A DNA stretch of 64,000 bases from Brachycybe producta (Eukaryota > Arthropoda > Diplopoda > Playtdesmida > Andrognathidae), in assembly GCA_036925085.1 (NCBI GenBank), contig JAUPFP010000025.1:3205733-3269732 (forward strand). The letters run 5' to 3'. The position numbers and the translations under genes were made by a program. A model generated the notes under the pieces. The model was given only the letters and a program-made list of their open reading frames with translations. It had not been told where the DNA came from and did not search any database. This document shows, piece after piece, positions 20,886 through 64,000 of the stretch. Positions within the stretch are counted from its first letter, which is position 1. Each line of letters begins with the position of its first letter.

Positions 20886-23800
20886 TCACCTTTTTAATGG
20901 TTTTATTTTAATCTTTATGTGGATTTTGTCATTAAGAAGGTAGTTATTGTTTTCCACAAATGACAGTGGAACTAGAAGGGCTTTTCTAGACTCTCCCATT
21001 TGTAATTCTGCTTCTTCTTCACCTATTTCAAATGGATCAATTTTGTCTGTCTTGACAATAGGTTTACAATTAGTGTTCATTGGCATAATTAGAACTTTTC
21101 GTATATGGCCGAACGCTTTCGGAAGTTCATTATCGTATTTTCCTCGTAAAGTTCGTAACATTAGTTCCATATGTTTTCCACGTCTCAAACTACCATTGAG
21201 ATAAAGTTCGGCACGCATTCTGTAGCCCCTTTTACTCGTGTAGAATGATTCACTAACAAGTGATTCGAACATTCCGTCTCTTTCTTGTCGACTCTTGAAA
21301 GAATAATTCTCAATTATCCAATCGAGAACTCCGTTATAAGAAGCAACTTTATCCATGAGCGGAATGGAATCTCTGATAGAAATCTTAATTTGGAGATTGT
21401 CATTTTCTAAGCACTTGCCGAGTTGTTCGACTGCGGCTGCCGTGGCAAACATACGTTTCGAAGTCCAATCAGACTTCCATCGTTGTTTTTGAACCGTCCC
21501 ATATCCTAATTCCTTACTTTGTGAAATCGATTTAATCACGTTTTTTCCGCTTAAGCCATTTAAAATATATGAAATCTCGTGGTCGAATACATGCTCTCCT
21601 ATAACTCCAGATTCGTTGGGTTGAAACATAAAAGATATCCATATAGAACGTATTAATAATGTATCAAGATGTTTTCGTACACGGTCCACATCCATCTTAA
21701 ATTTTACACGACATCCTTGCGAGCAAATATAGTATTTATCACTTTCAAAGGTAATTTTCTCTGTGTTTTGTTTTTTCTTATGATAGTCTTTAACATCCCA
21801 TACAAACTGCTGGAAGCTGACATCATCTATAATATGAAACAGAAAAAAACTCATGAACGTTAACAGTAACAGTATAAACGTCACAACTAAGAGACAGACA
21901 GTTGTATTGTTATGACAGATAATGGCAATGCCAAATTTAAATTCATTTTATCACGACCATAGTTTGGCATCACTAATCACTCTAATGTAAGTCCTAAGCC
22001 AATAAGCCAAGTGCTAAACTAAACTTCCCGATGAAAATTCCAATCAAAAGATTTTGAGTTTAGCATTAGCTTTGTCTATCGCATTCATTAAAAATATAAC
22101 CCTAATACCGCAGTTCCACTAGTTAAGTGCAGTTACAAAAAACCAAGCTTATAGTTAACTGCAGACAAGCCACAAATGGTACTTTGGTATGTTTCGACCA
22201 TAATATTTAAAAGACACGCGTGGTTTATTTATTTTTTCACGTCCTGTTAAACAGTTGTGCATTTAGTGAGAATGTCACTCCTCCTTCAGTCAAAAATTGA
22301 GTGCTCTCACTGTCCGCCATGTTCTTTGTACGCTAATTTGGTTGAAACACAGGAAGCAAAGTATTTAACCATTCTATAATGTGGTTAACCATATCACAGG
22401 CATGCCTGGCGGGTGGGGGCGCATATTGTAACGAACTACTTCCCAAGGAGGAACAGAATTGACTCAGTGGTTGGGTAGGCCACTTATTCTATTTGGTTCG
22501 GGAGGAAGGGAACAAACTAGCCCCTTAATTAGTTCCTGGCAAATTCCGTCTGTACGAACTCTTACAGATTAAAGGATCTTTTTGCTGTTAGTTACTCCTC
22601 AGGCTTGCACCTGATTAAAAGCCAATAAATTGTGTGTGGTCTTCTCAAGTTACATCTAGTGTTGGTGATCCAGATTTTCACCTGGCGGATTTAGATAAAA
22701 TAGAATAAATATTTCAATAACTCGTTGTGCATAGTAACAGTTTCTTTTCATGTTTCCAAAATTCTCTCTCGAATATATACAAAAAACACATGGCCTTATA
22801 CATGTATACCCAAGAAGAGGATTCTGAGAAGACATTCTCAGAATCCTCTAATTGGTCCTTTATGAAAATACAAATCAATTAAACCAATCACAAGGTTGAC
22901 CAGTGGTAAACAAAAATATCGACTATAATTCAGCTTCTATTAAATAAGATAATACAAAAGAAAAACGCAACCCCATTGACTTTTAAGGTGTGGAACTGGG
23001 AGGAAAGGGCCCAAGCCCCGGTTGTATCCCCGTGACGTTACAAAGGGCGAAACCAGCTGCACGGAACTAGGTCAACTCTCTGTACATCCATACAGAGGGA
23101 TGACAAAGTTCCATGCACTCCACAAAAAAATCGAACCAGAATCGCTCCTGGAGGCTGGACAGATCGTTTCAATCTACCTAATAAAGTTTATTTATGAAAA
23201 GTCAATTACTTTTTAATTTTTTTAATTATGTTAATGATTTTTTTTTTTATTTTAAAAATCATTTTAGCGAAATGTCGGTGGGTAATGGCCTCTTTTAGGC
23301 AGTAAGTCTCCTAATACGGATACCATTGTAAAAAAAAAATATGAACTTACCCATATATTTATACGTAGAGTTTTGTATTAAACTTAAACTGTTTTCTTTA
23401 TTTTGCTTCACATTCTTCCTACGTCTGAAGTTGGAGACTTTTCTTGCGTTTTTCAGGAAAAATTTTTTCCAACTAAGCCAAGAATCCCTCTTATGCGACT
23501 GTTTTGATTTCCACACTTCTAAAATTACAAATTTAAGAAATTATGTATGTATTAGCGTATTTAAAAAAATGAATGATCATTGACTAATGATGCTTGCAAA
23601 ATCATATTAGGGGCCTACTGTGAATGGTAAACAGTAGGCATAATACAACGACAACGATGAATAATGCGACTGCTACTATTAAACTAGATGCATAGTAGTC
23701 CAATTCCGTAGATCTATTCTCTTCTTTAAAACGTAGTTCTAGACGTTTTGTAAGCAGCCATAGTATTTATGCAAATGAAAAAAAAAACAGTAGAATAGAA

Positions 23801-25889
23801 CGGATTAATTTACGCTTCAAAAGCAACAGAAGAAACTGAAAGTCTTTTATAATTTAGAATGGGAAATGTTGCATTAACTGAAATTTAAAAAAAAACTTTC
23901 AGTCACCGGTAAAATGTTTTAATTCAGGTACCTGGTTTAACATTGAAATTGGCTTTTCGTGATGAAGTCACAGAAACAGTATCATTATCAACAATGACGC
24001 ACTGATATTGACCGAAATCAGTAGATTGTGCCTTTTGTATCACAATCGAGCAAACCGTAGTTTGAACTCCATTTCCTACCAGATATTTGTAACGTCCATC
24101 GATTGTTATATGAGTTCCGTTTCTTTTCCAGTAGCAAATTAAGACTGGCACATTCAAAACACAATCCAACTTTGCATCGTTTCCGACAGTAATAGTCAGA
24201 TGCTCTGGTTCCACAATAAATGATGCTGAAAAATGCCAAAGAAAAATAATTTTTAGTCGATGTTTCCACTCAAACCCATAAGTCTGTAAACATTTTCATT
24301 AAAATACACATGATTTCAGAGTATGAATGGAAACAATACTTAATAATTAATTCACCTGGAAGTACAATAACTTGAACTTCTCGTGACAAAACATGAAGAG
24401 CTTCACTTTTGCCATGGATTGCACACAGCCAATTGGCATTGTCAATTGCTCGTGCATTGAAAATTACAATAGAGCAGATTGAAGTGTTTTTTCCATTTCC
24501 AATAAGATACTGGTAACGTCTATCAATCCAAACATTCTGTCCATTTCTTTTCCAAAGACATTCCGGAATAACTCGATCCAGCACGCAGTCCAGTTTCGTA
24601 TTTTCTCTGACATTTACAGTCACATTTCTTGGTTCCTTTATGAACGATACTAAAATTCATTCAAATTTATTTATTTGGATTCGCAAAACATTTAAAAATA
24701 ATAACTCCGTAAGTATGCAACCTCTTGAATAAACTGTCAGTTTAAATTCCTGCCATTGATGATTTCCGTTTTCACATTTCCAAACACCAGTGTCGTACTC
24801 ATTATTAGCATTAGATATGTTGATCGAACAGTCACTTGTTTCCTTCCCAATGCCGTCTTGGTATTTGTAACGACCTGCAATGTTTAATTCGTCCTTATTC
24901 CTTCGCCAAACACATTCTGACATTGTCTGATCGAAGATGCACTTTAAATCGATATCGCTTCCTTCGTAGATCTCGATAGATTTGGCCTCAGTGAGATATT
25001 TCATTGTATCTTCAGCTAAAAGAAATATAAATAACTTATAAAGTAATACAGTGTATGGTATTATGCAGTGATCTGGGTGAAATAATCAAAAGCTTACATT
25101 ATGTAACAGAAGAATTAAATTGAAGCAGTTTGTACCCAATAATTATTAGAGTAATTATATATTTATCCCTATTTTTTAAATTGAAAATAAAAAAACTGTG
25201 ATGGTAAAATGGTAAACATTATAAAAATAATATTCTGAAATATTTTAATTGATAAGAAACTAGAAAGTTTATTGCGTATAATCCATACATCATCCTGACT
25301 AGTATAAATCCATCGTGCCATCTACACGGAAAGAAAACATTACAAAAATAGTTAAATGCCTTGGAGAACATTTAATAAGTGTAGACCTAATTTCTAAAAA
25401 GTAATAATAAATAAATAAATAAATAAATAAAAAAACCTACATTGTTGAAAGTGTTATTGTACATTTTTTAATCACCCTAACTCAGTGATTCCCAACCTTT
25501 TTTGTTTGGAGGAACCCTTAAAGCACTTTGTAAAATGTTTCGGGCACCCCTACCTTGGCTGACACATATTAGGTTCGACAGGGGTAAAACTATAAAATAG
25601 ACATGTAAAGCAGTAGGGTTAATTAGCTTGCAATCTTTTGCAAATTCTCACAAAAGCCTGTACATCGGCTGGTAGAACCCCAGTTTTCCACAGAAGCTGG
25701 TTGGGAATCATTGCTCTAAATAGTAGACAATTTTCAGAAAAGCACGCCCAACGATGTCAGATCCCACTATTGTTTGAAGCATGTACAATAATATATGCAG
25801 AAAAGAAACTGTTTAAATAATATCTTACTGTTGATGATCCTGAAGAGTACAAGAGAAATAAAAACTTGTCCAAGTAGAAATGACCCCAT
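20886..25889 (-). CDS. G1: Ig3-TM-linker-tandem MATH receptor (7 exons, 718 aa)
   Basis: Predicted single-pass membrane receptor. Exons on the minus strand: signal peptide 25829-25889, Ig1 24722-25015, Ig2 24356-24649, Ig3 23932-24225, transmembrane 23619-23723, linker 23351-23518, MATH 20886-21826. They sum to 2157 nt with all introns in phase 1. Residues 1-20 are a hydrophobic leader. Residues 21-314 are three Ig-like domains, each with a B-strand Cys, a WKRNG or WRRN motif, a CSI motif and an F-strand Cys. Residues 315-349 hold the membrane helix (around VALFIVVVVLCLLF). Residues 350-405 are a strongly basic linker unlike those of G2, G5 and G6. Residues 406-558 and 569-715 are two MATH domains; the second has the TRAF-C hallmarks WxIxNY, SxSFYTSKRGY, LNGS, G-x-H and GKYDxELP. 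TRAF-type MATH domains trimerise and bind signalling partners; a fused receptor module is inference. The Ig1 donor (GTTGCA) is weak. The linker-MATH intron carries a solo LTR. G1 is the most divergent MATH copy. Confidence 0.88.
22427..23171 (-). mobile_element. Solo-LTR-like element, copy A, in the G1 linker-MATH intron
   Basis: This is the reverse complement of the element at 50040-50922. On the minus strand it begins TGAAACGATC and ends GTTCGTTACA, so it has TG...CA ends with short imperfect inverted termini. The flanks are atat and atct, a 4-bp duplication with one mismatch. No internal retroviral-type coding sequence is present, so it reads as a solo LTR. Confidence 0.6.
25483..25713. 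mobile_element. hAT-type non-autonomous element in G1 intron 1
   Basis: The ends are inverted repeats (CAGTGATTCCCAACC at the left, its complement at the right). The flanks ccctaact and ctctaaat match at 6 of 8 positions, consistent with an old 8-bp target duplication. It lies between the signal-peptide and Ig1 exons of G1. Confidence 0.55.
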
Positions 25890-27197: not shown

Positions 27198-30100
27198 CTA
27201 AACCTGTTTTGCATTTTTTCTGTGTTTTATGTTACTGATGTCATCAACTTCTATTAATGATTCTAACAAATGATTCGAATAATTATCCAAAGGAATTATT
27301 TCTACTTTTATGTAAAGAGTGTCATGAAGAAGATAAATGTCCTTTTCCACATCGGTTCGAGGAATTAAAAGAGCTTTTTTCGGTTCCCCCATTTGAAATT
27401 CAGCTTCTTGTTCTCCGATTTTTGATGGATCGATTGTGGTTCTCTGCTCGATTGGGCTGGAATGATTATCCCATGGCATAATCATAACATTTCTAATGTG
27501 TCCAAAAGCTCGTGGAAGTTCAATATCATATTTTCCTCTATATGTTCTAAGCTGAACCTCCAGGTGTGTTCCATGCCTCAAACTCCCATTAAGAAAAAGT
27601 AATGCTCGCATTCTATAACCTCTTTTACTTGTGTAAAATGACTGACTAACAAGTTTTTCAAAGTAGCCCTCTTCTTCTTGTTTTCTCTTTACAGAATAGT
27701 TAGTAATTTTCCAGTGAAAGATTCCATCATAAGATGCGGCCTCATCCAAAAGTGGAATTATGTCTCTGATGGAAACCTCAACTGTGAGACTGTCTTTATT
27801 TAAGTAATTACCATAACCTTCAATCAATGCTTCAGTGGCAAACATACGATTCCCAGTCCAGCCTGTCCGCCACTGTTCTCGTTGTTGTTTTCCATAACCA
27901 GGTTGTTTTGTTTCTGATATAGCCATGTCTCCTGTTTTTAAATCTCTTACCACAAAAGAAACATCATGGTCGAAAACGTGATTGGAAATTGTTCCTCTAT
28001 CATCCGGTAGAAACTTAAATGACAGACGTACTGAACGTTTATTGAGAAAAAGGCATGCTCGAATTGTCTCATTTTTCATTTCAAATTGCATTTTGCAGCC
28101 TTTCGAACAAATAATATGAATATCACTTTGTATTTTGCATTCTGCTCCAAAAGCCTGTCGTTTTTTCAAATGATAGTTGTCAATAGTCCAGTAAATTATT
28201 TTATCTGGATTTTTACCTGATTGAAAAAAAGCAAAAAATGTTTTAGTTGATTTTACTGCAGATTTTTAAATTCCATAAAGTAAATCCATGTTAATCACTT
28301 TAAACAATTTCGCCTACATGCATAGTATGCTGGGCTGATTTAAGATTTTTGTAGGCTCTAGAGTATAGGAACTTCGGATTTTAGAGACCCCCTTCAGCTC
28401 GTAACATTCTAGTTATTTTTTATTTTTATTTTGTCTTTCGAATTATGCGCCATACGTCCCACTGTAACAGTAAACATGCTTGACGTTTTTGCGTTCAAAT
28501 TATACAAAAACGTCTATGGAGCATAGTAGTAGCCACTGCAGTGAAGCCATATACGGTTCGACAAAAGCAAAATAATAAAAAAAAATCTATAAAGCCACGT
28601 TAAAACAAGAGGTTTCTTGATTACTTTTGTTACTACCCCCTTTTCTATCAGTTCTAATGACACAAGCCTAGCTATTTGGTCATCCCCACTGACGTCACAA
28701 ACTTCTAGTTACAGTTCGGCAACTGTAAACCCCAAGTATGTTTGCATAATATATGCGAACTATTCACATGCTAACTTTATCAATAACATGCCGTGCAAAT
28801 TTATAAGTAGGCCTTTTGCCGTACAAAAATATATAAAACAAACTATAAACTTACCACAAGATGTTACTCTGTATACATCTGAATTTCTTATTAAACTCAC
28901 ATCATGTTTTTCAGACTGAAAATTGAAGTTTTTAACCGGGTTCTCTGGTAAACTGTGCAGCAAAGGTATTTCTGAGCTGTCCAGTGACACATCATCATCC
29001 TTTGTTTTTTTAATTGTAGGGTCTAATAAAAAAATACTTGTAATGAAAATTGATTTGTAGTTGTCAATCTATGTACCATTCTTGTCTGTCATCCATAGGT
29101 GGTAAAGAACTTGACTTAAAAGTGTAAGAGCTGCTCCCGTTATTATTAATGCCACATAAATAAATGGTTCGATGGAGTTGTTTAATTCATCGGACATTAC
29201 AACGTAAGATTTGTCTGGAAAATGAAAAAAAAAGTTTTGCTTTTGAACACCACACCCGGCCATCATTATGTTTGTTTAATGACCCAGAACAAATATTATT
29301 AAACTTCCGCAAAACAACATTTGTTAAGGATAGTCTATGAGGAAGTTATTAAGTTGGTTTTAAAGTCTAAACAGTTCTCAGACTCTGATCATTCTATCTT
29401 TCAGGTGCAACATAAAGAAAAATGTGAATATGTTTAAGAAACTCTAAGCAGACAATAATTTTTAATTTTTGTCTATAAAAAGTTTATTTTGAAAGATATC
29501 AACATGAAAATATACCTAAAATGATTGAGCCACCTTTCTAGTTTCTAAAACACTTTCTAGTTTCTCTTACTTTTGCTATTGAAAACCCGAAAAATCAAAG
29601 TTCTGAATTCAGCTGTTTATAAACAATCTTAAGAAATATTATGCAAAAAAGACAAAAATACTGTTAATTAATTTTTTATTCTAAAAAAAGACCCTTATCT
29701 CTTATCAATTTCTTCCTTTTTTATTCCTCATTTCCCATTTTTTTCCAGAATTATAATCTTCTGGCCATGATATCATACCAATTATTAGTTTTAAAAACGA
29801 GAAACAGTTTATTTTACCGGTCTTTACATGTATTGCAGCTTCCTGCGATAAGAGACCCGCAGGAATGTTTTCGTTCCCATAAAACGAACACTGCCAAGTA
29901 CCGTTGTCAATAGGTTGTACATCGTTGATCACAATGGAGCATACTGACGTGTCCATTCCCCCTTTGATCAAATATTCATGGCGTCCATGAATATTTATTG
30001 TCATCCCATTTCTCTTCCAATAACACTCGACAACAACATGACTTAACACACAATCCAAAACTACACGTTCGCTGTGTTTTACTGTCATATCGCTAGGATG

Positions 30101-31733
30101 TTTGACCAGTGACACTGTAAATATTGTAAAGTTACTGCATTGTTAGTGGGGAAAAACGAATATTACATGCGATACTGGATACCTGGTTTTACAGTAAATG
30201 TAACTTCTCTCGATAGAATACTTTTATAGAGAACATCCTCGTTATCGTACTCTAGTATTACACATTGCCAAGTGCCATTGTCAATTGCACGTGAATCGGC
30301 GATTATAATGGAACACATTGTCGTATCCCTTCCATTTCCAGTGACGTACTGGTAACGTTTGTCAATCCAAACACCCATTCCGTTTCTCTTCCAGTGACAT
30401 TTCTTGACAAAATTACGTAAAACACAATCCAGTCTGCCATTTTCTCTCAAATTCACCGTCACGTGAGTTGGTTGTTCGATAAATGCATGTTCTAAAACAG
30501 TCCAATAAATGAAACGAACAAATACTTCGTTAAACTTTCAAATTGGTCTTACCTTTTGGATGTATTGTCAGCTGTCCTGCACGAGACACGAGTCCATTCC
30601 TTTCTCTGCAGTTCCAAGTTCCAGCATCGAATTTAATGCTGCAGTTGTCTATTCTAATAGAACAATCTTTTGTGTTTTTTGCATTAGCTTTGTAACGAGC
30701 ACTAATATCAACAATAACTTTATTTCTTTCCCAGAAACATTCTGCCACAGGTTCAGAAAAGATGCATTTCAACTCAGTATCAGTCCCTTCATATACTTCT
30801 GTTGCTTTCGGCTCTTCAAGGAAAATAATACCGTTAGCGGAACCTACAAATATAAATGCTTTTCATTATTTGAATCTCATTGGCACCCATTTGGCACCTT
30901 TTGTATTAACAGTGTATGATTTAAAAGCGCTATTCTCTTGATCTTATCTTAACAAAAAACTTGACAATGTCACAACAACTTCGGTGCAACTAGTCAACTC
31001 CAGTTTTATCACAATTTAGATAAGTTAGTTAGTTTATAATTGGCAATAAACTTCATGAAAATATCACTACATAAATGTAGATTTAATCTTATTCGGGTCA
31101 CCCTATAGAAAACTCAGTTTTATTGAATTCGAGGGCTAATTTTCTTTAATGAATTTGGACCTTCGTTGCGTTTTGTAAATTAATGATTAAATACAGAGTG
31201 TCTTATAAGTCTGAAATAATAAAAACAATAAAATGGCAAAATGAATGACTATTTCCAGAAACTCTTGACTACTGATCCTGAGAAATAATTCCAGGCGAGA
31301 TATTCAAAATGAAACAAAAAGTACTGGTACTGCCACAAATGTTTGCTATTTCGTTATTACAGAAGTATAAGACACCCTGTACAAGTTTTTATGTTAAATG
31401 TTATTGCAATTTACCCAAATATACCAAAATGTTAACATTTTAAAGGAGACAGTAATTACAAGAAGGATTGGATGTTTTAAGATTAAACATGATGGCATCT
31501 TTGACTCGTTGCAACAATGAAGTCTCAGTTTGTAAACTTTGAAATGTGCTTTCGTTATTTAAATACTGTATAATGTGTATTAAAATAGATTACAGATTAA
31601 TTCATTAGTAAGATTCGTAATTCATAATAATTACTGTTTATAATATAAAATATAAAGGTGACTTACTATTAGCAGTCCAGATTATGAAGTGAAACACAAC
31701 AATATATTCCAAATCAATTAATAGTGTCATCAT
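27198..31733 (-). CDS. G2: Ig3-TM-linker-tandem MATH receptor (7 exons, 762 aa)
   Basis: Exons on the minus strand: signal peptide 31667-31733, Ig1 30553-30843, Ig2 30183-30491, Ig3 29818-30114, transmembrane 29077-29214, linker 28855-29022, MATH 27198-28216. They total 2289 nt, an exact multiple of three, all phase 1. Two ATGs are adjacent at the start. Ig2 carries the family motif VWIDKRYQY. The helix is around YVALIITGAALTLL (residues about 335-360). The linker (368-423) contains an EIPLL dileucine-like stretch and the shared DVSLIxN...VYRVTS motif. Residues about 429-580 and 590-735 are the two MATH domains; the second has GIFHWKI, SQSFYTSKRGY, LNGS, GTHLE and GKYDIELP, matching the TRAF-C pattern closely. 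The protein should sit in the plasma membrane with Ig domains outside and MATH domains in the cytosol. The ligand is unknown. G3, its upstream neighbour, has the most similar Ig1. Confidence 0.92.
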
Positions 31734-36613: not shown

Positions 36614-36625
36614 TTATAATAATTT

Positions 36626-50300: not shown

Positions 50301-53300
50301 TTGATTGTGATGAGTCATTATCTAATATTTTTTTGACCACTGGTCAATCATGTTGATTGGCCAGTTTGGTTGTTACTTGTGTTATTACCCAATCAGGGGC
50401 TACTAAGCTAGAAAGTGTTCTCAGTATCCTCTTTTTGGGTATAAAAGGCCGTATATTTTGTATGTAAAAAAAGATTCCTTGGAACTCTTTAGCCACTGTC
50501 ACTATGCTCAAGTTTGTCCAAGAAATAACGAATGATGTAAATAAACTGTTATTAAATTTAAATAAGCAGTTGTCAAGTCTGATTTTATACTTTTTGAACC
50601 GAGCAAAGAACTTCAACATTTTATTATCTAGCACTGTCAACCCAGGTGTAAACCTGGATCTCCAGCCATAGTGAGACTTCTGAAGACAGCACGATCAACC
50701 AGCTTTTTACGGGCAAAAGCCCGGGGAGTAGCAGAGAACAAAAGATCCTTAAAACTGTAAAGGTTCTTGAGAGAGGAACTTGTGAGGAAACGTATGGGAC
50801 TAATTTGTTCCCTTCCTCCCGAACCAGAGTAGAATTAGTGGCCTAGCCAACTACTTTCTGATCGCCCGAAAAAGCGCTACGATACTTTTTGATAATTCAC
50901 CCCATGAACGTGGTTCGTTACAAAATACTAAATGAAAGATTTTCTAAAATAATTGAATAAATTACGCGAGTGATTCAGAATCACTCGGTTAATTTATTCA
51001 ATTATTTTTGAAAATACATGTACATCGACTTTCATTTCCTTTTTTGAGCCGCCAAACCGCATGTGCCCCCCCCCCCCACCGCAGTTGCGGGTCTTGCGGT
51101 TCCCTAGCTAAGCCCCGGATTATCATAGATTTTGAACATATATTACCTATTCTGCAGACATGTCTATGATTTATAATTTCCTAAAAAAATATTTATAACA
51201 GTAAACTTACCACTGGATGTCGCTCTATACACATCTGGGTTATGTATTAAGCTCACATCAAGTTGTTTATCTGATTGAATACTGGATTCATTAAGTTGTT
51301 TTTTAGACACTGGCTCCAGCAGCGGTGACGTTTCACTATCTAATGGCACATTTTCATCTGCCCTTATTTTTGCTCCTTAAATATTAATATGAAGTAATCG
51401 TCATTATTAATCAATTCATAAAAGTGCATTTTAAATGACCTACCCTTTTTAAAACTGTAATAAATATATAGGCCTACGTTAGTCAGTATAGATCCCAAAC
51501 AAACAATAATTGCGAGAACTTTGATGTTATCACTCATACACTGGTAGCTCACTAATTTCGAAGATGTTTCTTAATAAAAAAAGAAAATATTATTTTATGA
51601 TTCAATGTTGTTTGTGACACATTTGTCACCGCAGAACTAAGAAATAGGGCTTCAGAAATGTGACAACTAGAATCAAGCGGAAATCTAGAACTGTTATCTT
51701 TAGGACCTTCACAGGCGAGCAACTTTTAGACTTCGCGGTGAACTGCAAAATGCTGTTGAAAACGACAACTATTGGCTGTGCAGTATTCGACATTGTATTG
51801 ATATAGAAAGCGTCCAGACATGAACACACACGAGCACTTTCTCATTAACTACTAACAGACTGCAGTCGCCGGAAGATCGACGCAAGCGTTTCTTATTTTC
51901 ACACGGATAACTTGTCATCCACCTGTGGTGTTTCTGCCTTCTTCCCATAAAGCAACAATAACAAAAGTGTTTTCTAATCGGGTTCCATTCTGTATGAATG
52001 GCTACTGAAGTCATTCCTGTGGTCTATGTGGTCTTAGGGTAGGTTTAGCTCTCCAAAGCTTAGCTTGTTCATACAAAAACGTGGTCTTGCAAGCTTCACT
52101 GCATTTTATAACCTTTATACCCTATAAAACACGAAGACTTTTTGCAGTTAATTAAATTATGCTCACACCACTTTCCAACCACCTGCCGTCAACTCCAGTA
52201 GTTTATTTCGACAACGTGTCCACCACTTTTGGCCTCTAGAAACTGCTCGTCTGCGAACGCTCTAAAAGTCCTACAGATTCTTCTTTCAAAATAAAACAAA
52301 TCATAACGTCAAAGTTTTATTACAGGTACCCATTGTAACTTCCAGTAAAGCTTCCTGCGAAGTACCACCAGCAAAACCTTCATTTCCTTTATACCCACAC
52401 TGCCACGTGCCATTATCAGTTGATTGTGCATCATTAACCAATAAGGAGCAAACTGATGTATTCCTTCCATTTCCAGATAAATATCGGTAGCGACCAACAA
52501 TTGTAATATTTATTCCGTTTCTTTTCCAAAAACATTCCAATATAACATGACTTAACACGCAATCGAAAACGAAATGGTCATTGCCTTTCACGATCATACT
52601 ATTTGGCTGATTGATAAATGAGACTGTAATTAATGTATCATAATTACAAATATTAAAGCTTTTGTTTGGTAAAAAATTGTATTAATGTATTAAAGCAAAT
52701 ACTTCACCTGGTATTACACGAAACGTGGCTTCTCGAGAGAAAATATAAGAAACTACCTCGTTATCATCGTCGTTTAATATTGCACACTGCCACCTGCCAT
52801 TGTCAATTGGTCGCACATCATTAATCAGAACGGTACACCTTGTGGTGTTCTTTCCATCTCCATCAATATACTTGTAACGTTTATCTATCCAAACACTCAT
52901 TCCATTTCGTTTCCAGTAACATTTTGTGACGGGAAGACGTAACACACAATCCAGTCTGCTATTATCTCCTAAATTTACGGCCACATCTTTTGGCTCTTGG
53001 ATGAATGCTAGTACTGAAATGATATAATACCATATAGTCAGCAGAAATCCTGTCTTGTTGAAGTTGTATAGTGATTTACTTTTAGAAAGCACAGTCAGCT
53101 GTGCTGGCCGTGACACGAGTACTTCTGTTCCTCGACATACCCACATTACATTGTCATTTGCATCATTGCAATTGGATATTCTTATAGAACAATCTTTCGT
53201 GTTTATTCCAGTTCCTTTTGTATATTGATAACGGCCACCAATGGCCGCCGGAATATCATTCTTATTCCAAACGCATTGTTTTATAGGTTCGGAGAAAACG

Positions 53301-53543
53301 CATTTTAACTCAACACTGCTTCCTTCATAAACTTCAACTGCTTTTGGCTCTTCAAGAAATTTGATATTATTCGCTGAAACTGAAAAATAAATTATTTAAA
53401 TTTCAATAAATGATTTTATAAATTAAATGAGTGTAAAGTACAAAGTAGATATATTTATGGCAAAATGTGAAAATATTCTTACTACTGAGAATCCATATCA
53501 TCAAGCAAACCGCAAACAGATGTCCAGTTTGAAAGCGAGGCAT
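47381..53543 (-). CDS. G6: Ig3-TM-linker-tandem MATH receptor (7 exons, 755 aa)
   Basis: Exons on the minus strand: signal peptide 53483-53543, Ig1 53080-53379, Ig2 52708-53013, Ig3 52330-52623, transmembrane 51444-51569, linker 51211-51375, MATH 47381-48396. They total 2268 nt, an exact multiple of three, all phase 1. The leader is MPRFQTGHLFAVCLMIWILS, close to that of G5. Ig1 is atypical: WNKN replaces WKRN. The helix is VLAIIVCLGSILTNVGLYIYY. The linker has ETSPLL, an acidic dileucine match, and DVSLIHNPDVYRATS. The MATH domains are at residues about 423-574 and 584-730, with GVFHWKI, SPQFYTIKRGY, LNGS, GTHIE and GKYDDELP. The 2.8-kb linker-MATH intron carries a solo LTR inserted into another repeat. 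A conserved donor near 53891 suggests a 5' UTR exon, with a MITE in the following intron. Confidence 0.92.
49583..49680. repeat. Imperfect palindrome
   Basis: CTGGTTACGAATATACGATC and GGTGCAAAC on the left are mirrored by GTTTGCACC and CATATTCGTAAGCAGG on the right. It is a possible small MITE in the G6 intron. Confidence 0.4.
49740..51120 (+). repeat. Dispersed repeat split by solo LTR B
   Basis: The parts 49740-50039 and 50923-51120 align with 62980-63480. Both carry the words TTCCGACTGTTCCTACTATTT, shortened here, TGGTGCAAGTATGTAG and a C-run before a TACGGGTCTTGCG or TGCGGGTCTTGCG end. No coding capacity is seen. Confidence 0.5.
50040..50922 (+). mobile_element. Solo-LTR-like element, copy B, in the G6 linker-MATH intron
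   Basis: It starts TGAAACGATA and ends GGTTCGTTACA, with a 4-bp duplication aaat on each side (50036-50039 and 50923-50926). The surrounding repeat occurs uninterrupted near 63290-63320, which gives a natural empty site. The family resembles an LTR in its ends and 4-bp duplication; the AT-rich target would suit Ty3/gypsy-type integration (inference). Confidence 0.72.
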
Positions 53544-53891: not shown

Positions 53892-55600
53892 TTTGAAACT
53901 TATGTTTTTGTTTATGAATAATTAAATATCATAACATATTAGTGTGACATTGCGCATTAAGATTGTTGTTTTTCTACATTAAACAACACCTAATTTGAAG
54001 TTAACACAAATTCGTAATAAACAACTTTCTAAAATATCTTGAAAGGTTTCGATATGAAATACTGTTATGACAACCTAATTAATCACTATAGATAAATTCT
54101 GAAAAAAATGGAGATTAGATCATTCATCCATAAACATGATAAACCCAACAAAAAATAATTGGTAACTACCACAGTTTAAAAACATTCGCAATAAACTGGT
54201 AATACTAGTATTATCATTAAATAAAATATTTATAGTGGATTATAATAATAGTAATCATAACTAGATTTTGTGGATTCACAAAATATTTGAGTACTTCCTG
54301 TATGCTAAAAGAAAGAAAGAAACGAAAACCAAACGTCACACCGGCTATACCAAATACAGTGTATTGCATGATACCTGGTACTGAATTTCTTCATGCTGAT
54401 AGCATGCAATCTTAAGGAATCCAAACCAGTTTTATGAAAGCTGAAAAAATGTTTTCAAAGAACAGCTAACTGTTTACAAAATGAACCTTTATTGGTCTAG
54501 AATGGCCTCTTGACATGAGTGGATTAAAGAAACTGATTAGCATAATTACAAGAATATTAATCAAAAAAGATGTTTTTGTGATACTCGCTTTTATAAAAAA
54601 AAAGCATAAAAAGTAAGAAAAAACAATATCTAATCCCCTCTTGTCTTGCTCAGACTCCCAAGCCCATTAGTAATGTTGGTCATGGGTTCAATCCCCGTGC
54701 AGTGTAGGAAGTATTTTCAAATATTTCAGAAGGTGGCAGTGAACAAACAAATTATGAAGTTAAATACAAATATAAAAGCGAGTATTATGATTCATGAAAA
54801 TAAAAACACCAATCGAATATTGTAACCAAAAGATCTCATTGTGTGTTCCCCATCTGAAACAATGCCGAAGGTTGTAGATGGAGGCTAAGAGAATGCTTAT
54901 ATGTAATGTCGTTGGGGTATGCTAATGTACTCCACTAATATCTATAGCCTCCATCTCCATCTCCATCGTTGTTACAGGCAACTGTGGTCAGCAAGATGCA
55001 GTCGTTTGCCCCGCCCTTTTATGAGGAACGGCAATTTCTAATTGGCTTGTTATACAGGCATTTAGAAATCGGGAGGAACACAAGTTGGCTCCGCCCTTTT
55101 TATGACGAACGCAACTTCTAATTGGTTGGTTATGTAGTATGCTGTCACATGCTCTGCCCTTTTCAATGTCGAACCATACAACACATCAATTAGAAGTTGC
55201 TGGTCGTCATATTATAGTGTAGTGCAGTGTAGAGCTGAAGGACGTTTTTTCTTGTCTCCCAATTTTTTGGCTATTTTACTAATTTAAACTTGTCATTGAA
55301 GGGTATAGTAAGGTGTTTTTAATAGTGTTTTGTCTCCTGAATACAGTGGTGAAATCGGATTCCAATTTGGATAAGTATTTTTTGAGTTAGAGCGATTTTA
55401 GTTTAGGACACCACTTCCTTTGTTTCCTTTTTCTTTGTTTCCTTTGTTTGTGCGCGTTTTTTACACAAAACGCAACAAATTCCTTATCCAAACTTGGTTT
55501 CCTTATAGAATATTGTAGAATCAAAATCGGACTTGTAGTTTCTGAGATATCGCATTTTCAAATCAAAACTCCACTTTAGGCCCAAAAAGTTTAAAAAAAA
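53892..55600. other. Intergenic region upstream of G6
   Basis: No gene seen. A small hairpin (GATGGAGGCTA ... TAGCCTCCATC) lies at about 54877-54960. The stretch 55010-55215 belongs to a dispersed repeat with AACTTCTAATTGGT inverted motifs that also occurs at 19010-19150 and 56810-56890. Confidence 0.5.
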
Positions 55601-55612
55601 AGACGCTTAACG

Positions 55613-56329
55613 TTGACGCTTTTTTCTTCTCTAAAATTATTAGGCTCTTTCTTGCTTTATTATCGTTTTAACTATGTCTCTATAACTTTGACCCCACCTG
55701 GTTCAGTGCAGGCATCCCGTGATATCGCCTGTATGCGAAAGAAGGTTGCTGAGTTGAAGGAATTGTTTCTTCGGCATTGCAATGCTCTCCCTACAGTGAC
55801 TCACGAGATTGCATGCCAGACAAGTGATGTTGTGCCTGGCATTTCATCCAATGTATCTGTAGGAACTGACTTGGTAGTTAAGAATCAAGCAGCCCAGACA
55901 GGAGACGGATGGATGGTGGTCAAAGGCAAAGGATCTCGGCCACAGAGAAAAAGCTTTGCCAGTGTCGTGGCTAATGGTAGTTCTGCTACCATGGTTGGTA
56001 ACCGATTTGGTGTGCTGTCTGAGGTTAAGGATATTCCTGCCTCAACATCCACTAATTATAGCCCACAAACTGGTAAGCCTATCAATGTGCACCTCATTGG
56101 TGACAGTATCGTTCGAGGTGTTAGGGTCAGCAAAACTGGGAAGTCAACTACGTGGTGCTATCCAGGCACACGTGTTGAGCATTTAACTACTCGAGTTAAG
56201 GCAGTGCTGAACAAAGCTAGCCTTAACCCTGTTGTAGTTGTGCACGCCGGAACTAATAATCTCAAGATGGATGCACCAAAGGGGATAGCTGAGAGACTTA
56301 AACACTTTTCTAGAGTACCATTAGTTTGA
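55613..56329 (+). pseudogene. LINE-type ORF1 fragment with SGNH hydrolase domain
   Basis: An open frame of 238 codons in which the part from about 55700 looks protein-coding. A coiled region (KKVAELKELF) is followed by a linker, then VHLIGDSIVRGV and VVVVHAGTNNL. GDSxV (nucleophile block) and GTNN (block III) are signatures of SGNH/GDSL hydrolases, a domain found in ORF1 proteins of CR1-like LINEs and related elements. The C-terminal DxxH block is missing and the reading frame stops, so the copy is truncated. It has no apparent link with the receptor array. Confidence 0.6.
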
Positions 56330-56890
56330 AATAAAATTTTATTACTTGCAACCAAAATGGTTAATTATTTAAAACAAACTTGAGAATAACATTTCGTAAA
56401 TAATATCACAGCATTGTACTGATTATGTAACATTTGATGATAAATTGAGCATTAGTTTATCACTTAAGCATCAATGTATTTACATAAAATAATAAATCAA
56501 CATAAACTCATTTATTAAAGTACATTGATAGAATTACTACTTTATATGTAACTTACTTGCTATCAAATTACAAGCGTACAATAAATAAATTTAAGATTTT
56601 AGAATTTAACTTCTTATATAACTAAAAACAATCGTCCATTGTAATATATTAATATTATGTTCCTTCTTATTGACAATTACATTCCCTTGGAATGCATAAC
56701 TCTTGAACTCAGACGCCTTCACGCTGACCTAGTATTATAATTATACACTAGTGGGGTAATCCGTCATAAATGACGGGAGCGAAATTCACAGGCAATTGTG
56801 CCCAGCATTAGAATTTCTTTTCCTCCGCCCTTTTATGACGTCAGACCAAGTAACAAACCAATTAGAAATTGATGACGTTCATAAAAGGGT

Positions 56891-57135
56891 TCCGTTAGCA
56901 TCGTGATCCGTTAGCATCGTGATCCGTTAGCATCGTAATCCGTTAGCATCGTAATCCGTTAGCATCGTAATCCGTTAGCATCGTAATCCGTTAGCATTGT
57001 AATCCGGATTACGATGCTAACGGATTACGATGCTAACAGCCGTTAGCATCGTAATCCGTTAGCATCGTTACCATGAGCATTGTAATCCGTTAGCATCGTA
57101 ATCCGTTAGCATCGTAATCCGTTAGCATCGTTACC
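56891..57135. repeat. 16-bp minisatellite with an internal inversion
   Basis: About fifteen copies of CCGTTAGCATCGTAAT run head to tail. A short block at about 57003-57040 is inverted, forming a hairpin. The right edge overlaps the predicted last codons of G7. Confidence 0.85.
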
Positions 57136-60100
57136 GTTAGCGTCGTTATCGTCGTCGTCGTTGTCATCATTATCATTATTTATTATTAATTTATTATTAT
57201 TATTATTATTTATTAATTCAGAAGAATCATCCATTGGTTCCTTCGTCGATAACTCCAAAAAATCGTCTAATGATGTATTACGTTCCTCCTGTTGACTTTT
57301 ATTTTTTAATTCTGAAAAATCAACAAAATTTGTGAAAGTTACACATTTAACTACACATTCATACTGACTTTGAAACTTTAAACACTCACTCAAATTTAAA
57401 TAGTAACCTGTAAAAGCAACTATCAACACTCCAACGATTATTAATAAATCAATCCTTATCAAAACGTTGCTGTCGGAGATAGAAAGTTTCTCTTCTTAAA
57501 TAAACAAAATTAAATTTTAGTATGTAACGTTATAGACCAAGAGCCAGCAACACGCCGATTTAACCCGAAATATATAGAAGGGTGGAATACATAAAACCTT
57601 AGAAAGTGGGGTCACTAACCAAGATCAGCTGGTCTGGCAGCCCACATAAGCCGAGTTCAAAAATGACGTCGTCTCAAAAATGGCCAAATTTGCGTTCGAT
57701 TTAACCCGAAATATATAGTTTTGCTTTTTGGCTGAAAAAATTGGAAAAAAATATCCCCACTTAGAAAAAATCCGTGTGGCAGTCCAAAGATGTCACCAAC
57801 ATGCTGCCAGACTGATTCAAACTTCACGAAAATTGCGTTCAATTTAACCCAAAAGATATAGTTTTGATCATTTAGGAGGGTTCCTGAGCCTATAAGAATG
57901 TTTCTGGGCTTCTAAAAATGTGCGGAGTCTCTAAAGCAGCAGTCACACTAGGCTGGTTTACAAGCTGCTGGTTGCTGCTGGCTGGTTGTAGCGCTCTAGC
58001 AGCATAGTCTGAACTGCTACTAGCAGCTGCTTTCTTCAGCGGGCTAGTGATTTTAACTACAGCTACCAGCTGGTCATGTGACTCCCTTCCTGCTGCTGCC
58101 ATCTAGTGTGAACTTTTTGTTACTAGTAGTGGCACTAGTGGTAGTTGAAACTCCACTGCTTGGGTTGGTTGTTGTTAGAGTTTGTGTTTTTGCAAGACGG
58201 TGATTGGATGACTTGCACTGCTAATACCAGCAGTGACTGGACAAGTGTGAACCCAAAGCAGTTGCTGCTTACTGTTGCTGCTAATAGCCAGCAGCAACCA
58301 GCGGCTTGTAATCCAGCCTAGTGTGACTGCGCCTTAAGAGTGATTTGAACCATCTAGCAATGTTTCTGAACATCTAGGTGTGTTTCTGGACTTCTTTGAG
58401 CTCAGCAACACTCCCAGAGGCCCAGCAACGCTCCCAGAGGCCCAGCAACGCTCCCAGAGACCCAGCAACGCTCCCAGAGACCCAGCAACGCTCCCAGAGA
58501 CCCAGCAACGCTCCCAGAGACCCAGCAACGCTCCCAGAGACCCAGCAACGCTCCCAGAGACCCAGCAACGCTCCCAGAGACCCAGCAACGCTCCCAGAGA
58601 CCCAGCAACGCTCCCAGAGACCCAGCAACGCTCCCAGAGACCCAGCAACGCTCCCAGAGGCCCAGCAACGCTCCCAGAGACCCAGCAACGCTCCCAGAGA
58701 CCCAGCAACGCTCCCAGAAGCCCAGGAACGCTCCCAGAGGCCCAGCAACGCTCCCAGAGGCCCAGGAACGCTCCCAGAGGCCCAGGAACGCTCCCAGAGG
58801 CCCAGGAACGCTCCCCGAGGCCCAGGAACGCTCCCAGAGGCCCAGGAACGCTCCCAGAGGCCCAGGAACGCTCCCCGAGGCCCAGGAACGCTCCCCGAGG
58901 CCCAGGAACGCTCCCAGAGACCCAGGAACACTCCCAGAGGCCCAGGAACACTCCTAGAGGATCAGAAACACTCCAAAAGGCTCAGAAACACTTCTAAAAA
59001 CTAGAGACACTCCTAAAAGTTTAGAAACACTGCTATATACTTAGTATCACTTCTAAAGACTCATTAACAGTCCTAGAAGCTAAGCAACACTGCTAGAGGT
59101 TCATAAACATTCATAGAGGCTCAGAAACACGAATAGATGGTAATAAACACTCCTGGAGGTATAGATACACTTCTGGATACTAAGAAACACTCTTGTAGGT
59201 TTATAGAAATTGCTAGATGCTCTGAATTATTTTCCATTACCGGTCACCTTATAGCATTACCAATTTTTCGGTAATGCAACATTACCGGTATATAATACCG
59301 GTAAATTTCGGTAATAAAATTAAATTTTAATAAGCATTGTAAAAAAAAAAATTCCCATGTTAAAAAAAATTAAAATAAATATAAATTCATAACTAATAAT
59401 TAATTATATAATAAAAAAATAATCACGATAAATAAAATAGGTGGGTTTTTATCAATTTTGTCTCGATTCAAATTCCAAAATGATGTTAAGTTTTTAATAT
59501 TTTTAATATTTTTATACATAATAATTGTGAGCTGTTGATGTCGACTCTATAATTTTACCAACTTGATGATGATGTTTTCTGCAACTCGTTTCTTCCCCTG
59601 ATCGCGCGGTGACCGCACGAAGAAGATTCGAGTTACAGAAGTAGTCGGATGGAGATCGATTGCGATCATCCTTCTGTGCAGGGGTGTAATCTTTGCAGAA
59701 GGATGGTGGCCATCTCTCCTGGTCGACGCTGATGTGCATCTTCCTGTTGTTACCAATTGAAGATGCTGTAGCTCCTCCAGGATCCGTATGTGACGGTATG
59801 TCTCCTTGCCTTATGGTGTCTCCGGCCTGTTTAGAGAAGTGTTAGTTTCATAACAAATAGACAACGCAGTTTCTCATTGTAACGCTTTATTCATTCTTGC
59901 TCAGAAACATCAAGAGTACAAGAATGAATTGTTTAGATCAAAGGTGCGTCCTCGGGCCCATGATGTGGTACAGTTATAAGAATCTTCGTAATACAAAAGT
60001 TGAGCAAGTAAGGACGTTGAACAAAGAGAAACATGCCCCTTTTATACCTTGGACCTGTGTACACCTACGAGGTGTAACCAGGTCCAAGTGACCATGGTCC

Positions 60101-63100
60101 TGAGAATATCAATCCGCCACTAGAATATTAATTAGAAGAGGAGGGAGGGACAAGCAGGAGTTGTTTACCCCCCAGGCTACGGTTTTGGCGGGATCGGGAG
60201 TTACTGGGTGTTATATAATTGTTTTGTATATAACAAGCGTAACTAATGAAGCTGTTGGGTTAATTTAGTACCGAAGTATGTACGGTATATATAATGCACG
60301 GAAAGGATTTTAACTATACGAACATTTACATTAGGAATTTACTGCGACTTTCGTAAACGGTTACAACTTACATGTGCATACGAATACCATTTTTTTTTTA
60401 CTTCAGTCTTTGAAAAAACTCTTGGTTTCTACGTATAGTCTATGTGAGATTTTAATTTTAAACTCAGTGGTTCTTAAATATTTGGTCGTTTCTTTTATCC
60501 AAATTAATATAAAATTTTTTTTGGAAAAACCGGCATTGAATGGTCAATTTACCAGTAATACCGATGTAACAAAATAGACCGGTAATACCGATGTAACAAA
60601 ATAGACCGGTAATACCGGTTTACAAGTGACGATAAAACCGGTAATGGAAACCCTACTCTGAATCACTCCTAGAGTCTCAGAAACACTCCGAAAGCTCGGA
60701 AACTCCTATAAGCTAAATGCCACTCCTAAAGAGTTAGAAACATGCCTAGAAAGACAACAAATTGATAAAAATTTAGGCCCACTCATGGTGACTCAGCAAT
60801 TTCTATAGGTTTAGAAACACTGCCAGATGCACAGGATCACTCCTAGAAACTCAGAAACACTCAATAAAAATGTGTATTAACTATAGACACATTATGCATA
60901 CTGAAAAGTTCCCCTGAAAGTATTCAATTATTCAATACACTTTTATAACATGTTGCCCGACATGTAAGTTTCATAATATTTGCACTTTGACATGAATGGT
61001 CTGGCGGCATGTTGGTGTCAGCTACAGACTGCCAGACCATTTTTTTTTCTTGATTTGGACATTATTAACTCATGTTTGCGCCAAGAATCAAAACGTAAGT
61101 TGAACGCAATTTTCGTGAAGTTTGAATCAGTCTGGCAGCAAGTTGGTGACATCTTTGGACTGCCAGACCGATTTTTTCTAAGTTGGGATTATTTTTTTCA
61201 ATTTTTTAAGCCAAAAAGCAAAACTATATATTTCGGGTTAAATTGAATGCAAATTTAGCCATTTTTGAGACGACGCCAATTTTGAACTCGGCCTATGTGG
61301 GCTGCCAGACCAGCTGATCTTGGTTAAGTGACCCCACTTTCTAAGATGTTATGTATTCCACCCTCCTATATATTTCGGGTTAAATCGGCATGTTGCTGGC
61401 TCTTGGTCTATTAGCCCTTTGCAATATTTTGATATAAGAATAAGCATTCTTCTAAAGGAGTGATTCCCAAACTGGGTGCTGCAGCACACAAGTGTGCTGA
61501 GAGTTTTGCTAGGTCTGCCGCCAAATTTTGAATGCTACATTGATTTTGTTACTATGAATTAATATTTTCAATAACTTTTTAATTTTGTGGGAAAAAAAAC
61601 AAAACAAAACTTTTTCCACATTATTACATGTAAACACTAAGCTGTGGTTTCCAAAAGGTGTGCCGCGATTTTTTGAGGCACAAAATAATGTGCCGTGAGC
61701 AAAAAAAGTTTGGGAAACACTGTTCTATTTTATTAGTAATACATGATGATGATTGAAAAATAAACATTGGAAACAAATGTTCCCAATGCGGCAATCACAA
61801 ATGGTAATCTAGTTTACCTTTTAAAACAGTTAGTTACCTATTATTACACTGATTGCAGCTTCATGTGAGACGAGGCTAGGAACCTCTTCGTTTTCAAACA
61901 CATACACAGAACACTGCCATGTACCATTATCGAAAGGTTGTACGTCTTTGATTATGACCGAACAGATTGAAGTTGTGTTTCCATTTCCATCTAAGTAATG
62001 ATAGCGTCCAGTTATTATCACTCTCTTTCCGTTTTGTAGCCAAACACATTTTGATATAGACGGAGTCAACACGCATTCCAGTACAAAATAATTATTAATA
62101 TTAGTAGTGACATCACTTGGCTCCTTAATGAAAGAAGCTGAAATAACAAAGAAACATTTCATTGCAAATTACAAACTAGAATAATAAAAAAGAAACTGTG
62201 TACCTGCCTCATCCTAAGAAGAAGATTGTGAAATCATAGGAATTGACAAAAAAATGTATGGTATTGTGTCATTTTGTCGGATAAAAAAGGGGTAATAACA
62301 AAATACTGCAAGGATCATTTTGTTTAAGCTATAGAATACATTTGCTAATTAGCCCTTTTTATCGGACTAAATGACACAATCCTAAATTTTATGTCAATCC
62401 CTATGACGTTACATGCTTCTTCTTAGGATGATTGAGGCAGGTATAGAAGAATAAAAATCAAAATTTGCTACTAAATAGCAAAATAATTGTCCGGATAGAG
62501 TTGGCAATATTATTACTTTTCTAGCTTGTATTTCGTACGTTTTGAAATAAAATCGAGTTAAAGCAATTCATATATCTGAAGTTTTCTATGCGTAATTCGT
62601 ATACATGCATATATTGCATAATCGTGACAGTTTATCAAAGAAAAACGTAAAAGACATTATCAGATGCACGTGAATATGTGAACAAAGAGAAATCAGCATG
62701 GTCCCCACATCATCCCACATGTTGAAGGTTAATAACCGCCACATATTGCAACAGGTACAGTAGGCCCAGTGGCGTAGCTAAGTCATGGTTGCGCCCCACC
62801 GCCACTTAAAACTTTGCGCCTCGCCCCTCCCCCCGCCACTTAAAATGTTGCGCCCTCTTACCTCCCTTTACAAATAGCCCTCATACTGGGTGGGGGTACT
62901 ATTTTGATGAACGGTGGAACAGGTCTGAACAACAGTAGGAACAATCGGAAGGTTAGGAAAGGTTAGGAAATTAAGCTTCTTGCAATGGGTCCGAGGGGGG
63001 GGGGGGCGAAGCCCCCCATTTTTTAAAGAATTATTAAAACAAATTTGTCCATTGTTCCGACCGCTCTTCCCGTTAATCAAATTAGGGAACAGTCGAACAA

Positions 63101-64000
63101 TGGACTAATTTGATTTAATAAGAATAATTCTTTAAAAACTGGAGGCTGCGCCCCCCAAAACCCTGCAACAAGCTTAATTTAACTAAACCTAACCGTCCGA
63201 CTGTTCCTACTATTTTTCCGACTATTCTTACCGTTGTTCCGACCGTTCCGCCGTGCCCATTGATCTCTATGAAGATTTGCTGGTGCAAGTATGTAGTTTT
63301 TAAAAGTAAATATTAAATGAAAGTCGATTTATTTTCGAAATTAACTGAATAAATTAACTGAATAAATTAAGCGAGCGACTCGGAATCACTCGCGTTATTT
63401 ATTCAAATATTTTTGAAAATACATACTTTCATTTCGTTTTTTGCGCCCCCCCCCGCCCAGCAGTTACGGGTCTTGCGAGTGCCTAACAAATCTAGTGACT
63501 GTAGGCCTATGTGCAACAGTGCACAAAACAACTTGAATGCAGAGGCGTAGCTGGCTTGGAGGGCGCATTTTGAAGGTGCAAAGGGGGCGCAATGTTTTAA
63601 GCAGCCGGAGCGGCGAGGGGCGCAATCATGACTCAGCTACGCCACTGCTTGAATGAAGTAATTAGAAATTTTAGTTAATTATGCAGACTGTTTGTCTGCA
63701 AACAGGCCTGCCCAATAAGGACAAACAATGGCTCAAAATTGTCAATAAACATATAGCCTAAACCCACAGAATTTACAAGCATACATGTTTTATTAAATCG
63801 CAAACCAAGACGTGCCCCTTATTACCTCATTTCTGCCAATGACTAGAAAATGTCAGTACCTGGTTTTACAGCGAAGGTAGCTTCTCGTGAAAAAATGTGA
63901 GGCATTTTCTCGTTACGATATTTGTGTACAGCACATTGCCACGTGCCATTGTCAATGAGTCGCACACCAGTAATTACAACAGAACATAGCGTGGTATTTT
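57106..64000 (-). CDS. G7: Ig-TM receptor, MATH-less, acidic tail (5' part outside window)
   Basis: The partial gene continues beyond 64000. Exons on the minus strand: Ig2 63860 to beyond the edge, Ig3 61838-62137, transmembrane 57390-57494, tail 57106-57311. Ig2 shows CSVVI, NGTWQC and FSREATFAVKPG; Ig3 shows WLQNG in place of WKRNG. The transmembrane exon has the same length as that of G1 and the helix is IDLLIIVGVLIVAFTGYY. The tail exon follows a good acceptor (GATTTTTCAG) and encodes 68 residues rich in D, N and E. Its poly-Asn/Asp end derives from simple repeats and from the 16-bp minisatellite. The 78-bp intron before it is itself open and in frame, so splicing and retention give the same ending. 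No linker or MATH exon is visible down to G6. The Ig3-TM intron of about 4.3 kb is filled by nested transposons. Confidence in the tail is lower than in the Ig and TM exons. Confidence 0.65.
57932..58336. mobile_element. Palindromic MITE inside the large TIR element
   Basis: Inverted arms begin with CAGTCACACTAGGCTGG on both sides. The interior is rich in GCTGCTGCTGG-type words. It lies between the left TIR and the minisatellite. Confidence 0.55.
58402..58970. repeat. 20-bp minisatellite (about 28 units)
   Basis: Units of CAGCAACGCTCCCAGAGACC with variants (GGAACG, GAGGCC) are repeated head to tail. Degenerate relatives continue to about 59220 and resume at 60655-60870 after the hAT element. 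Open frames across it on both strands are by-products of the 20-bp period. Confidence 0.9.
59228..60655. mobile_element. hAT-type element with perfect 8-bp duplication, nested
   Basis: The ends read TATTTTCCATTACCGG and, inward from the right, TAGGGTTTCCATTACCGG. The flanking ctctgaat occurs at 59220-59227 and 60656-60663. The interior includes several ACCGGTAATACCGG motifs near both ends and an LTR-like fragment. No transposase frame is recognised. Confidence 0.7.
59840..60215 (-). mobile_element. LTR-like repeat copy inside the hAT element
   Basis: On the minus strand it starts TATAACACCCAGTAACTCC and ends AACTAACA, with an internal AATAAA. Its first part aligns with 4056-4345, sharing CACTTGGACCTGGTTACACC and a TATAAAAG box. 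No target duplication is visible. Confidence 0.4.
61458..61722. mobile_element. hAT-type MITE
   Basis: The inverted ends are GAGTGATTCCCAAACTGGG and, from the right, CAGTGTTTCCCAAACTTT. The flanks ttctaaag and ttctattt are partly alike. It lies in the G7 intron next to Ig3. Confidence 0.5.
62203..62441. mobile_element. TA-flanked MITE in the G7 Ig2-Ig3 intron
   Basis: Inverted arms of about 90 bp start with CCTGCCTCATCCTAAGAAG (right arm slightly longer) and are flanked by TA on each side, as in Tc1/mariner-type MITEs. Single-arm relatives occur at about 11245-11335 and 28610-28725. Confidence 0.6.
62767..63499. repeat. Dispersed repeat beginning CAGTGGCGTAGCTAAG
   Basis: A hAT-like left end is followed by C-runs and by sequence shared with 49740-51120. 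The flanks both contain GTAGGCC, a possible target duplication. It has no coding capacity and supplies the empty site for solo LTR B. Confidence 0.45.
63540..63647. mobile_element. 108-bp hAT-type MITE with perfect 8-bp duplication
   Basis: The ends are CAGAGGCGTAGCTGG and, from the right, CAGTGGCGTAGCTGAG. They are flanked by cttgaatg at 63532-63539 and 63648-63655. Confidence 0.75.

Follow-up and report, generated by a model that had tools for sequence, protein, structure and literature searches.

The window analysed here is a stretch of 64,000 nucleotides (nt) at positions 3205733-3269732 of contig JAUPFP010000025.1 (C25), within a searched genome of 295 Mb; coordinates below are positions in the window unless prefixed by a contig. 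Seven genes with immunoglobulin (Ig) domains, numbered by increasing coordinate as G12, G11, G10, G9, G8, G7 and G6, were found on the minus strand between 20886 and 64000, as the initial annotation of this DNA had described. The 5' part of G6 extends past the window end. Four of the seven genes (G12, G11, G8 and G7) possess an exon of about 1 kb at the gene 3' end which encodes two MATH domains in tandem, MATH1 and MATH2, and the positions 20886 and 27198-28216 given in that annotation agree with the MATH exons found by us. The features of the array are as follows.

25829-25889, minus strand: G12 signal-peptide exon (candidate scan and spliced model)
23932-25015, minus strand: G12 Ig1 (25015-24722), Ig2 (24649-24356) and Ig3 (24225-23932), one exon each
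23351-23723, minus strand: G12 membrane-helix exon (23723-23619) and linker exon (23518-23351), from the spliced model
20886-21826, minus strand: G12 tandem MATH exon with stop (Pfam and model; MATH1 half weak, 13 bits)
31667-31730, minus strand: G11 signal-peptide exon, selected from five candidates
29818-30843, minus strand: G11 Ig1 (30843-30553), Ig2 (30491-30183) and Ig3 (30114-29818), from splice sites and model
28855-29214, minus strand: G11 membrane-helix exon (29214-29077) and linker exon (29022-28855), from the model
27198-28216, minus strand: G11 tandem MATH exon with stop (Pfam, solved-structure match and model)
32830-35337, minus strand: G10, three Ig domains (35128-34841, 34777-34475, 33971-33678) and membrane helix (32961-32830), without MATH exon
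35277-35337, minus strand: G10 signal peptide, read by eye
38484-40034, minus strand: G9, three Ig domains (39885-39592, 39524-39231, 39078-38788), without MATH exon
40034-39974, minus strand: G9 signal peptide; the G9 membrane helix and short tail run from 38722
45446-45506, minus strand: G8 signal-peptide exon (candidate scan and model)
44315-45327, minus strand: G8 Ig1 (45327-45040), Ig2 (44978-44679) and Ig3 (44608-44315), from splice sites and model
43229-43579, minus strand: G8 membrane-helix exon (43579-43451) and linker exon (43384-43229), from the model
41865-42895, minus strand: G8 tandem MATH exon with stop (Pfam, solved-structure match and model)
53483-53543, minus strand: G7 signal-peptide exon (candidate scan and model)
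52330-53373, minus strand: G7 Ig1 (53373-53080), Ig2 (53013-52708) and Ig3 (52623-52330), from splice sites and model
51211-51569, minus strand: G7 membrane-helix exon (51569-51444) and linker exon (51375-51211), from the model
47381-48396, minus strand: G7 tandem MATH exon with stop (Pfam and model)
61838-64000, minus strand: G6 Ig2 (64162-63860, crossing the window end) and Ig3 (62137-61838), from Ig profile and splice sites
beyond 64000, minus strand: G6 Ig1 and signal peptide; no MATH exon was found for G6
57106-57495, minus strand: G6 probable membrane helix and linker, by likeness to the G4 counterparts as judged by eye

The array belongs to a cluster of 121 kb on C25 with 16 Ig-gene units (G1-G16), including loci outside the window. 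Ig exons were located with a profile made from nine Ig domains, which gave 48 hits; four hits of 7.7-8.1 bits were excluded, leaving 44. Open MATH exons are present in seven genes of the cluster (G4, G5, G7, G8, G11, G12 and G16), and the frames of the G4 exon were read as open up to the terminal stop. The MATH region of G14 is decayed and G13 has a MATH relic with stops, while tblastn found no relic in the sequence stretch covered at G6, G9, G10, G15 and G1-G3. Two Ig exons were found for G1-G3. A second, broken MATH1 fragment resembling that of G4 is located immediately downstream of G4 (C25:3281660-3281830). Beyond the MATH cluster, more Ig exons of the same type lie in opposite orientation on the plus strand (C25:3321236-3350103), where the MATH search gave no match.

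Complete spliced models were obtained for G11 (761 amino acids), G8 (752), G7 (753) and G12 (718) in the window, and for G5 (725) and G4 (703) beyond it. All 24 introns of the four window models are GT-AG and in phase 1, their coding lengths are divisible by three and internal stops are absent, which bears out the earlier claim that these genes join a signal peptide, three Ig domains, a membrane helix, a linker and two MATH domains in one frame. The G5 and G4 models share the same properties (GT-AG phase-1 introns, length divisible by three, no internal stop). Usable phase-1 sites flank 43 of the 44 Ig exons in the cluster; such sites were the search condition and the best of several candidates was sometimes taken, so the intron phase is partly built in and the result is the existence of open phase-1 chains. 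The exons of G11, and of that gene only, were first read base by base. Symmetric phases allow exons to be gained or lost with the frame kept, and this fits the presence of sister genes without a MATH exon.

The Pfam family MATH_2 was detected above its cut-off in all four window MATH exons (E = 5.6e-15, 2.3e-18, 3.2e-20 and 1.7e-20), including the 27198-28216 exon that had been called MATH from the start. Ig pieces taken alone reached an Ig cut-off in two of five cases in the same scan. When the four spliced window proteins were scanned, Ig and MATH families were found above their cut-offs in one chain in every case, with Ig_3, I-set and TRAF-mep_MATH all represented in each protein. No RING or zinc-finger family and no protease family was found by Pfam at E <= 0.01 in any of the four. 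Two MATH exons compared with solved structures match the TRAF domains of TRAF5 and TRAF3 (8.5e-17 to about 1e-14). In the AlphaFold model computed from an 8-row single-domain alignment, MATH2 is a TRAF-C fold; the fold proposed in the initial annotation is upheld by prediction for this domain and not for the pair as a whole, whose model is considered below. The Ig domains mostly carry four cysteines each. Signal peptides were called by pattern and hydrophobicity only. Each of the six complete proteins has one segment with mean hydropathy above 2, the helix falling at residues 326-360, followed by a linker of 39-56 residues. The MATH tail comes after the membrane helix and should therefore be cytoplasmic. 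At the level of gene models, the architecture Ig-membrane-MATH is very probably correct.

The peptide pocket was scored on an alignment of the seven receptor MATH2 domains with human TRAF2, 3, 5 and 6 and five TRAF-like domains of the same genome. The TRAF2/3-type receptor-peptide pocket, which we take to consist of TRAF2 R393, Y395, D399 and S453-455, is largely replaced in the receptors. Ser-Ser-Ser and Asp399 are absent from all seven and Arg393 is present in G16 alone, while position 395 is aromatic (Tyr or Phe) throughout. The genome's own TRAF2/3-like protein retains Asp399, Gly400, Phe410, Phe447, Ser455, Ser467 and Gly468. A caution against this reading is that Ser-Ser-Ser is also missing from human TRAF6 and from the five TRAF-like domains of the genome, so its loss alone does not exclude peptide binding. 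Human TRAF6 lacks D399 as well in this alignment and has R393, and because it also deviates, the R393/Y395/D399/Ser-Ser-Ser set defines TRAF1, 2, 3 and 5 rather than all TRAFs. TRAF6 binds another peptide motif. The receptor tails appear TRAF-like in fold and, judged by their residues, are not expected to recognise receptor peptides as TRAF2/3 do; another peptide code is possible.

The six complete genes make 15 pairs, and rates of nonsynonymous to synonymous change (dN/dS) were computed for seven of these; the values are rough, synonymous change being near saturation in many pairs. The MATH exon gave 0.21-0.31 in all seven pairs, the linker 0.20-0.52 in five of seven and the membrane helix 0.53-0.76 in four of seven. 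The Ig tree unites G12, G16, G9 and G13 (support 1.00), and within this group G12 adjoins the MATH-less G9 (0.66). MATH genes fall both inside and outside this group, and the simplest reading of the tree is that the tail is ancestral to both parts and was lost several times.

We consider it probable that tandem duplication produced these genes as one family of type I membrane receptors, whose Ig part binds a ligand and whose clustered MATH tails form a docking scaffold. The Ig part would bind a cell-surface or foreign ligand, which would cluster the receptors, and the clustered tails would then form a scaffold at the membrane where TRAFs or other cytosolic partners may dock. MATH2 would be expected to bind something else than PxQxT-type motifs, or to pair with TRAF or MATH domains, because most of the residues that grip tumour necrosis factor receptor (TNFR) peptides in TRAF2/3 are replaced. 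The MATH-less sister genes G9, G10 and G6 could be short-tailed partners or decoys. Taken separately, the scaffold mechanism of the tails is plausible but falls slightly short of probable, and an immune or self-recognition use is less probable than the mechanism. The initial annotation had gone further on both points. Its view that adaptor recruitment is bypassed is not established; the TRAF2/3 pocket is mostly replaced, so the tail is not simply a covalently attached TRAF2/3, which goes against that view in its simplest form. The same applies to an innate or self-recognition role: Ig exons gave dN/dS of 0.07-0.52 in the 20 of 21 comparisons yielding a value and gave no hint of hypervariability, which a self-recognition role could be expected to produce, although these are paralogs and not alleles and the role is not excluded by them.

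Immune use has a serious rival in adhesion or neural recognition. As an explanation of the whole family, an adhesion or cell-recognition system, for example in neuronal wiring or tissue sorting, with the MATH tail as a cytoskeletal or trafficking link, seems somewhat unlikely. It draws on the Ig exons, which are under purifying rather than diversifying selection between paralogs, and on the best solved relatives of one of them, which are DCC (3.6e-6) and, weakly, Robo1 (0.009). Arthropod Ig superfamily proteins are also best known for neural recognition, according to a review (PMC11999971). However, gene loss and decayed copies within a tandem array are generally typical of recognition families under turnover, and TRAF-C is a domain type of immune and stress signalling. 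A second alternative, that the two MATH domains serve as an adaptor for substrates or trafficking in the manner of SPOP or meprin and govern the turnover of receptor or cargo instead of forming a signalling scaffold, is improbable.

That the MATH exons are separate genes downstream of the Ig genes, or are joined to them in rare isoforms only, is highly improbable. All models come from genomic sequence, and phase 1, imposed as a search condition, is not independent evidence. G9, G10 and G6 are Ig genes without a MATH exon. The introns between linker and MATH exon are long in G12 (1,524 nt) and G7 (2,814 nt), and an in-frame Met occurs near or before the MATH start in three of the seven MATH genes (inside the exon in G4, by intron read-through in G5 and G12). 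Most of these points also weigh against the main receptor reading, which has further weak points: the signal peptide of G11 is one choice among five candidates, and the membrane-helix/linker join of G16 could not be placed. At the protein level, where the cut-off is 32 bits, MATH1 scores 36.5, 31.6, 25.5 and 13.0, the last value leaving the G12 domain barely detectable; the AlphaFold model of the whole MATH pair (4 rows) reached a predicted local distance difference test score of 34.7 and was discarded; and the charge on the inner side of the helix, counted over 20 residues, ranges from -1 to +6 and so is not positive throughout. Against separate genes, all seven MATH genes have a phase-1 acceptor at the equivalent position where the MATH exon begins, a linker exon with phase-1 ends is present in all six complete models, G5, G8, G11 and G4 have short linker-to-MATH introns (260, 333, 638 and 656 nt, respectively), and four of the seven MATH genes have no in-frame Met before the first conserved MATH1 strand. 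The identity matrices of Ig and MATH parts in the seven MATH genes are also congruent (r = 0.81; 17 of 5040 relabellings as high), although this would be expected too if separate neighbouring genes had duplicated jointly, and the shared acceptor and short introns are the stronger evidence for one unit.

An assembly artefact or pseudogene array is hardly credible: the G14 and G13 MATH regions have stops or frame breaks, a decayed MATH2 copy is present on contig C3 and some other contigs look duplicated (C6/C158, C47/C48), but seven MATH exons are open, dN/dS is well below 1 in the pairs computed, and overlapping sequence stretches are identical at every base, which tests joining and not assembly. 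The copy on C3 (C3:5187569-5188073) derives from G7 MATH2, with 88.5% DNA identity over 489 bases, stops and an insertion, and lies far from the cluster. It was considered as a processed copy that would reveal a spliced transcript and rejected: its sequence begins within MATH2 and a clear poly-A is lacking, so that it says nothing on splicing.

The receptor family proposed here shares a C-terminal TRAF-C (MATH) domain with the TRAF adaptors TRAF1, 2, 3 and 5. It differs from them by the attached Ig ectodomain and membrane helix, by having two MATH domains, by the lack of any RING or zinc finger found, and by the lack of the Ser-Ser-Ser pocket, which human TRAF6 lacks likewise; TRAF1 is itself without a RING. 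With Hydractinia Alr it has in common a clustered family of multi-Ig type I membrane proteins, whereas the present genome is bilaterian by its mitochondrial code and we know of no Alr tail with a TRAF or MATH domain. The Alr family comprises 41 genes according to the review cited above (PMC11999971), whose main text does not mention TRAF or MATH. In meprins the MATH domain is extracellular and accompanied by a protease; here it follows the membrane helix, and Pfam gave no protease family at E <= 0.01 in the four spliced window proteins. The paired receptors of vertebrates (KIR/LILR, CEACAM) likewise form clusters of Ig receptors that resemble each other outside the membrane and differ in their tails, but they use tyrosine motifs or partner adaptors where a folded TRAF-C pair is found here. 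Clustered Ig receptors with varied tails are a known kind; a tail made of a TRAF-C pair is, to our knowledge, new. The initial annotation knew of no named family with this architecture, and literature searches for Ig with MATH or TRAF returned no Ig-membrane-MATH protein in the titles and abstract beginnings. Relatives under uncurated names may well exist.

Coupling of receptors to TRAFs is thought to need peptide motifs in the receptor tail that are read by separate trimeric adaptors. If the proposed reading is true, a built-in TRAF-C with an altered reading pocket would be another wiring of Ig recognition to cytosolic signalling and a natural test of how TRAF-C acts when held at the membrane; if the use is immune, an invertebrate that has no rearranging receptors would possess a new family of clustered receptors. 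A broader proposal, which we put forward tentatively and with more doubt than belief, is an undescribed receptor class in which a TRAF was captured into a receptor, so that Ig clustering would directly assemble a tandem TRAF-C scaffold at the membrane without the TRAF2/3 peptide code, in a cluster prone to turnover, while a sister Ig cluster would use tyrosine-motif tails.

Searches of the whole genome for MATH scored the best candidates only, and the counts are therefore lower bounds: at least one TRAF-like exon was found on each of C6 (with a look-alike on C158), C14 and C47 (with a look-alike on C48), at least two on C32, and at least one broken hit on C28. The profile PF22486 hits this genome and none of 14 control genomes, and PF00917 gave no hit in this genome or in the 14 controls. 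A MATH exon searched against a protein database gave 880 candidates with none at E <= 0.001, in a collection perhaps poor in animal proteins and without a positive control. Ig relatives are also present on C7, C47, C30, C18, C37, C1 and C48. Those at C7:4112500-4120500 form a sister Ig cluster with minus-strand frames at positions 7084-7497, 3611-3880 and 4519-5616 of that stretch. Taken as single frames and not as joined exons, it has membrane-helix frames and, close to them, frames that look like tails and contain spaced tyrosines (DYHMYSEIPVYEND, EYHIYSEIKIYEN) in place of MATH domains; the tyrosine spacing seems to resemble immunoreceptor tyrosine-based activation or inhibition motifs (ITAM/ITIM).

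Several minor features were noted in the window. Two long arrays of a 30-base repeat (4979-6186 and 8029-8883) are open in many frames on both strands, and long open reading frames there are accordingly no evidence for genes. In G6, a 20-base tandem repeat at 58403-58989 separates Ig3 from the probable membrane-helix exon. An open frame on the plus strand (55595-56329), downstream of the G6 tail at a place where one would look for a MATH exon, has only sub-threshold Pfam matches (GDSL lipase, 13.9 against 32.9 bits; Dmrt1, 14.4 against 22) and may belong to a retroelement.

The mitochondrial contig C442 (15,359 bases) reads with genetic code table 5, ATA being Met and AGA Ser, as judged against cox1. 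Rfam found nothing on it, and ARAGORN found no tRNA in the one stretch scanned. Its gene order is presumably cox1-cox2-atp8-atp6-cox3-nad3-nad6-cob-nad2 ... nad4L-nad4-nad5, with nad1 on the opposite strand. This order and the character of the encoded proteins point to an ecdysozoan, and probably to an arthropod. Near-complete copies of mitochondrial cox1 are also present in contigs of nuclear size (C1:12697416-12698753 and C17:4027703-4029047) and are likely nuclear mitochondrial insertions.

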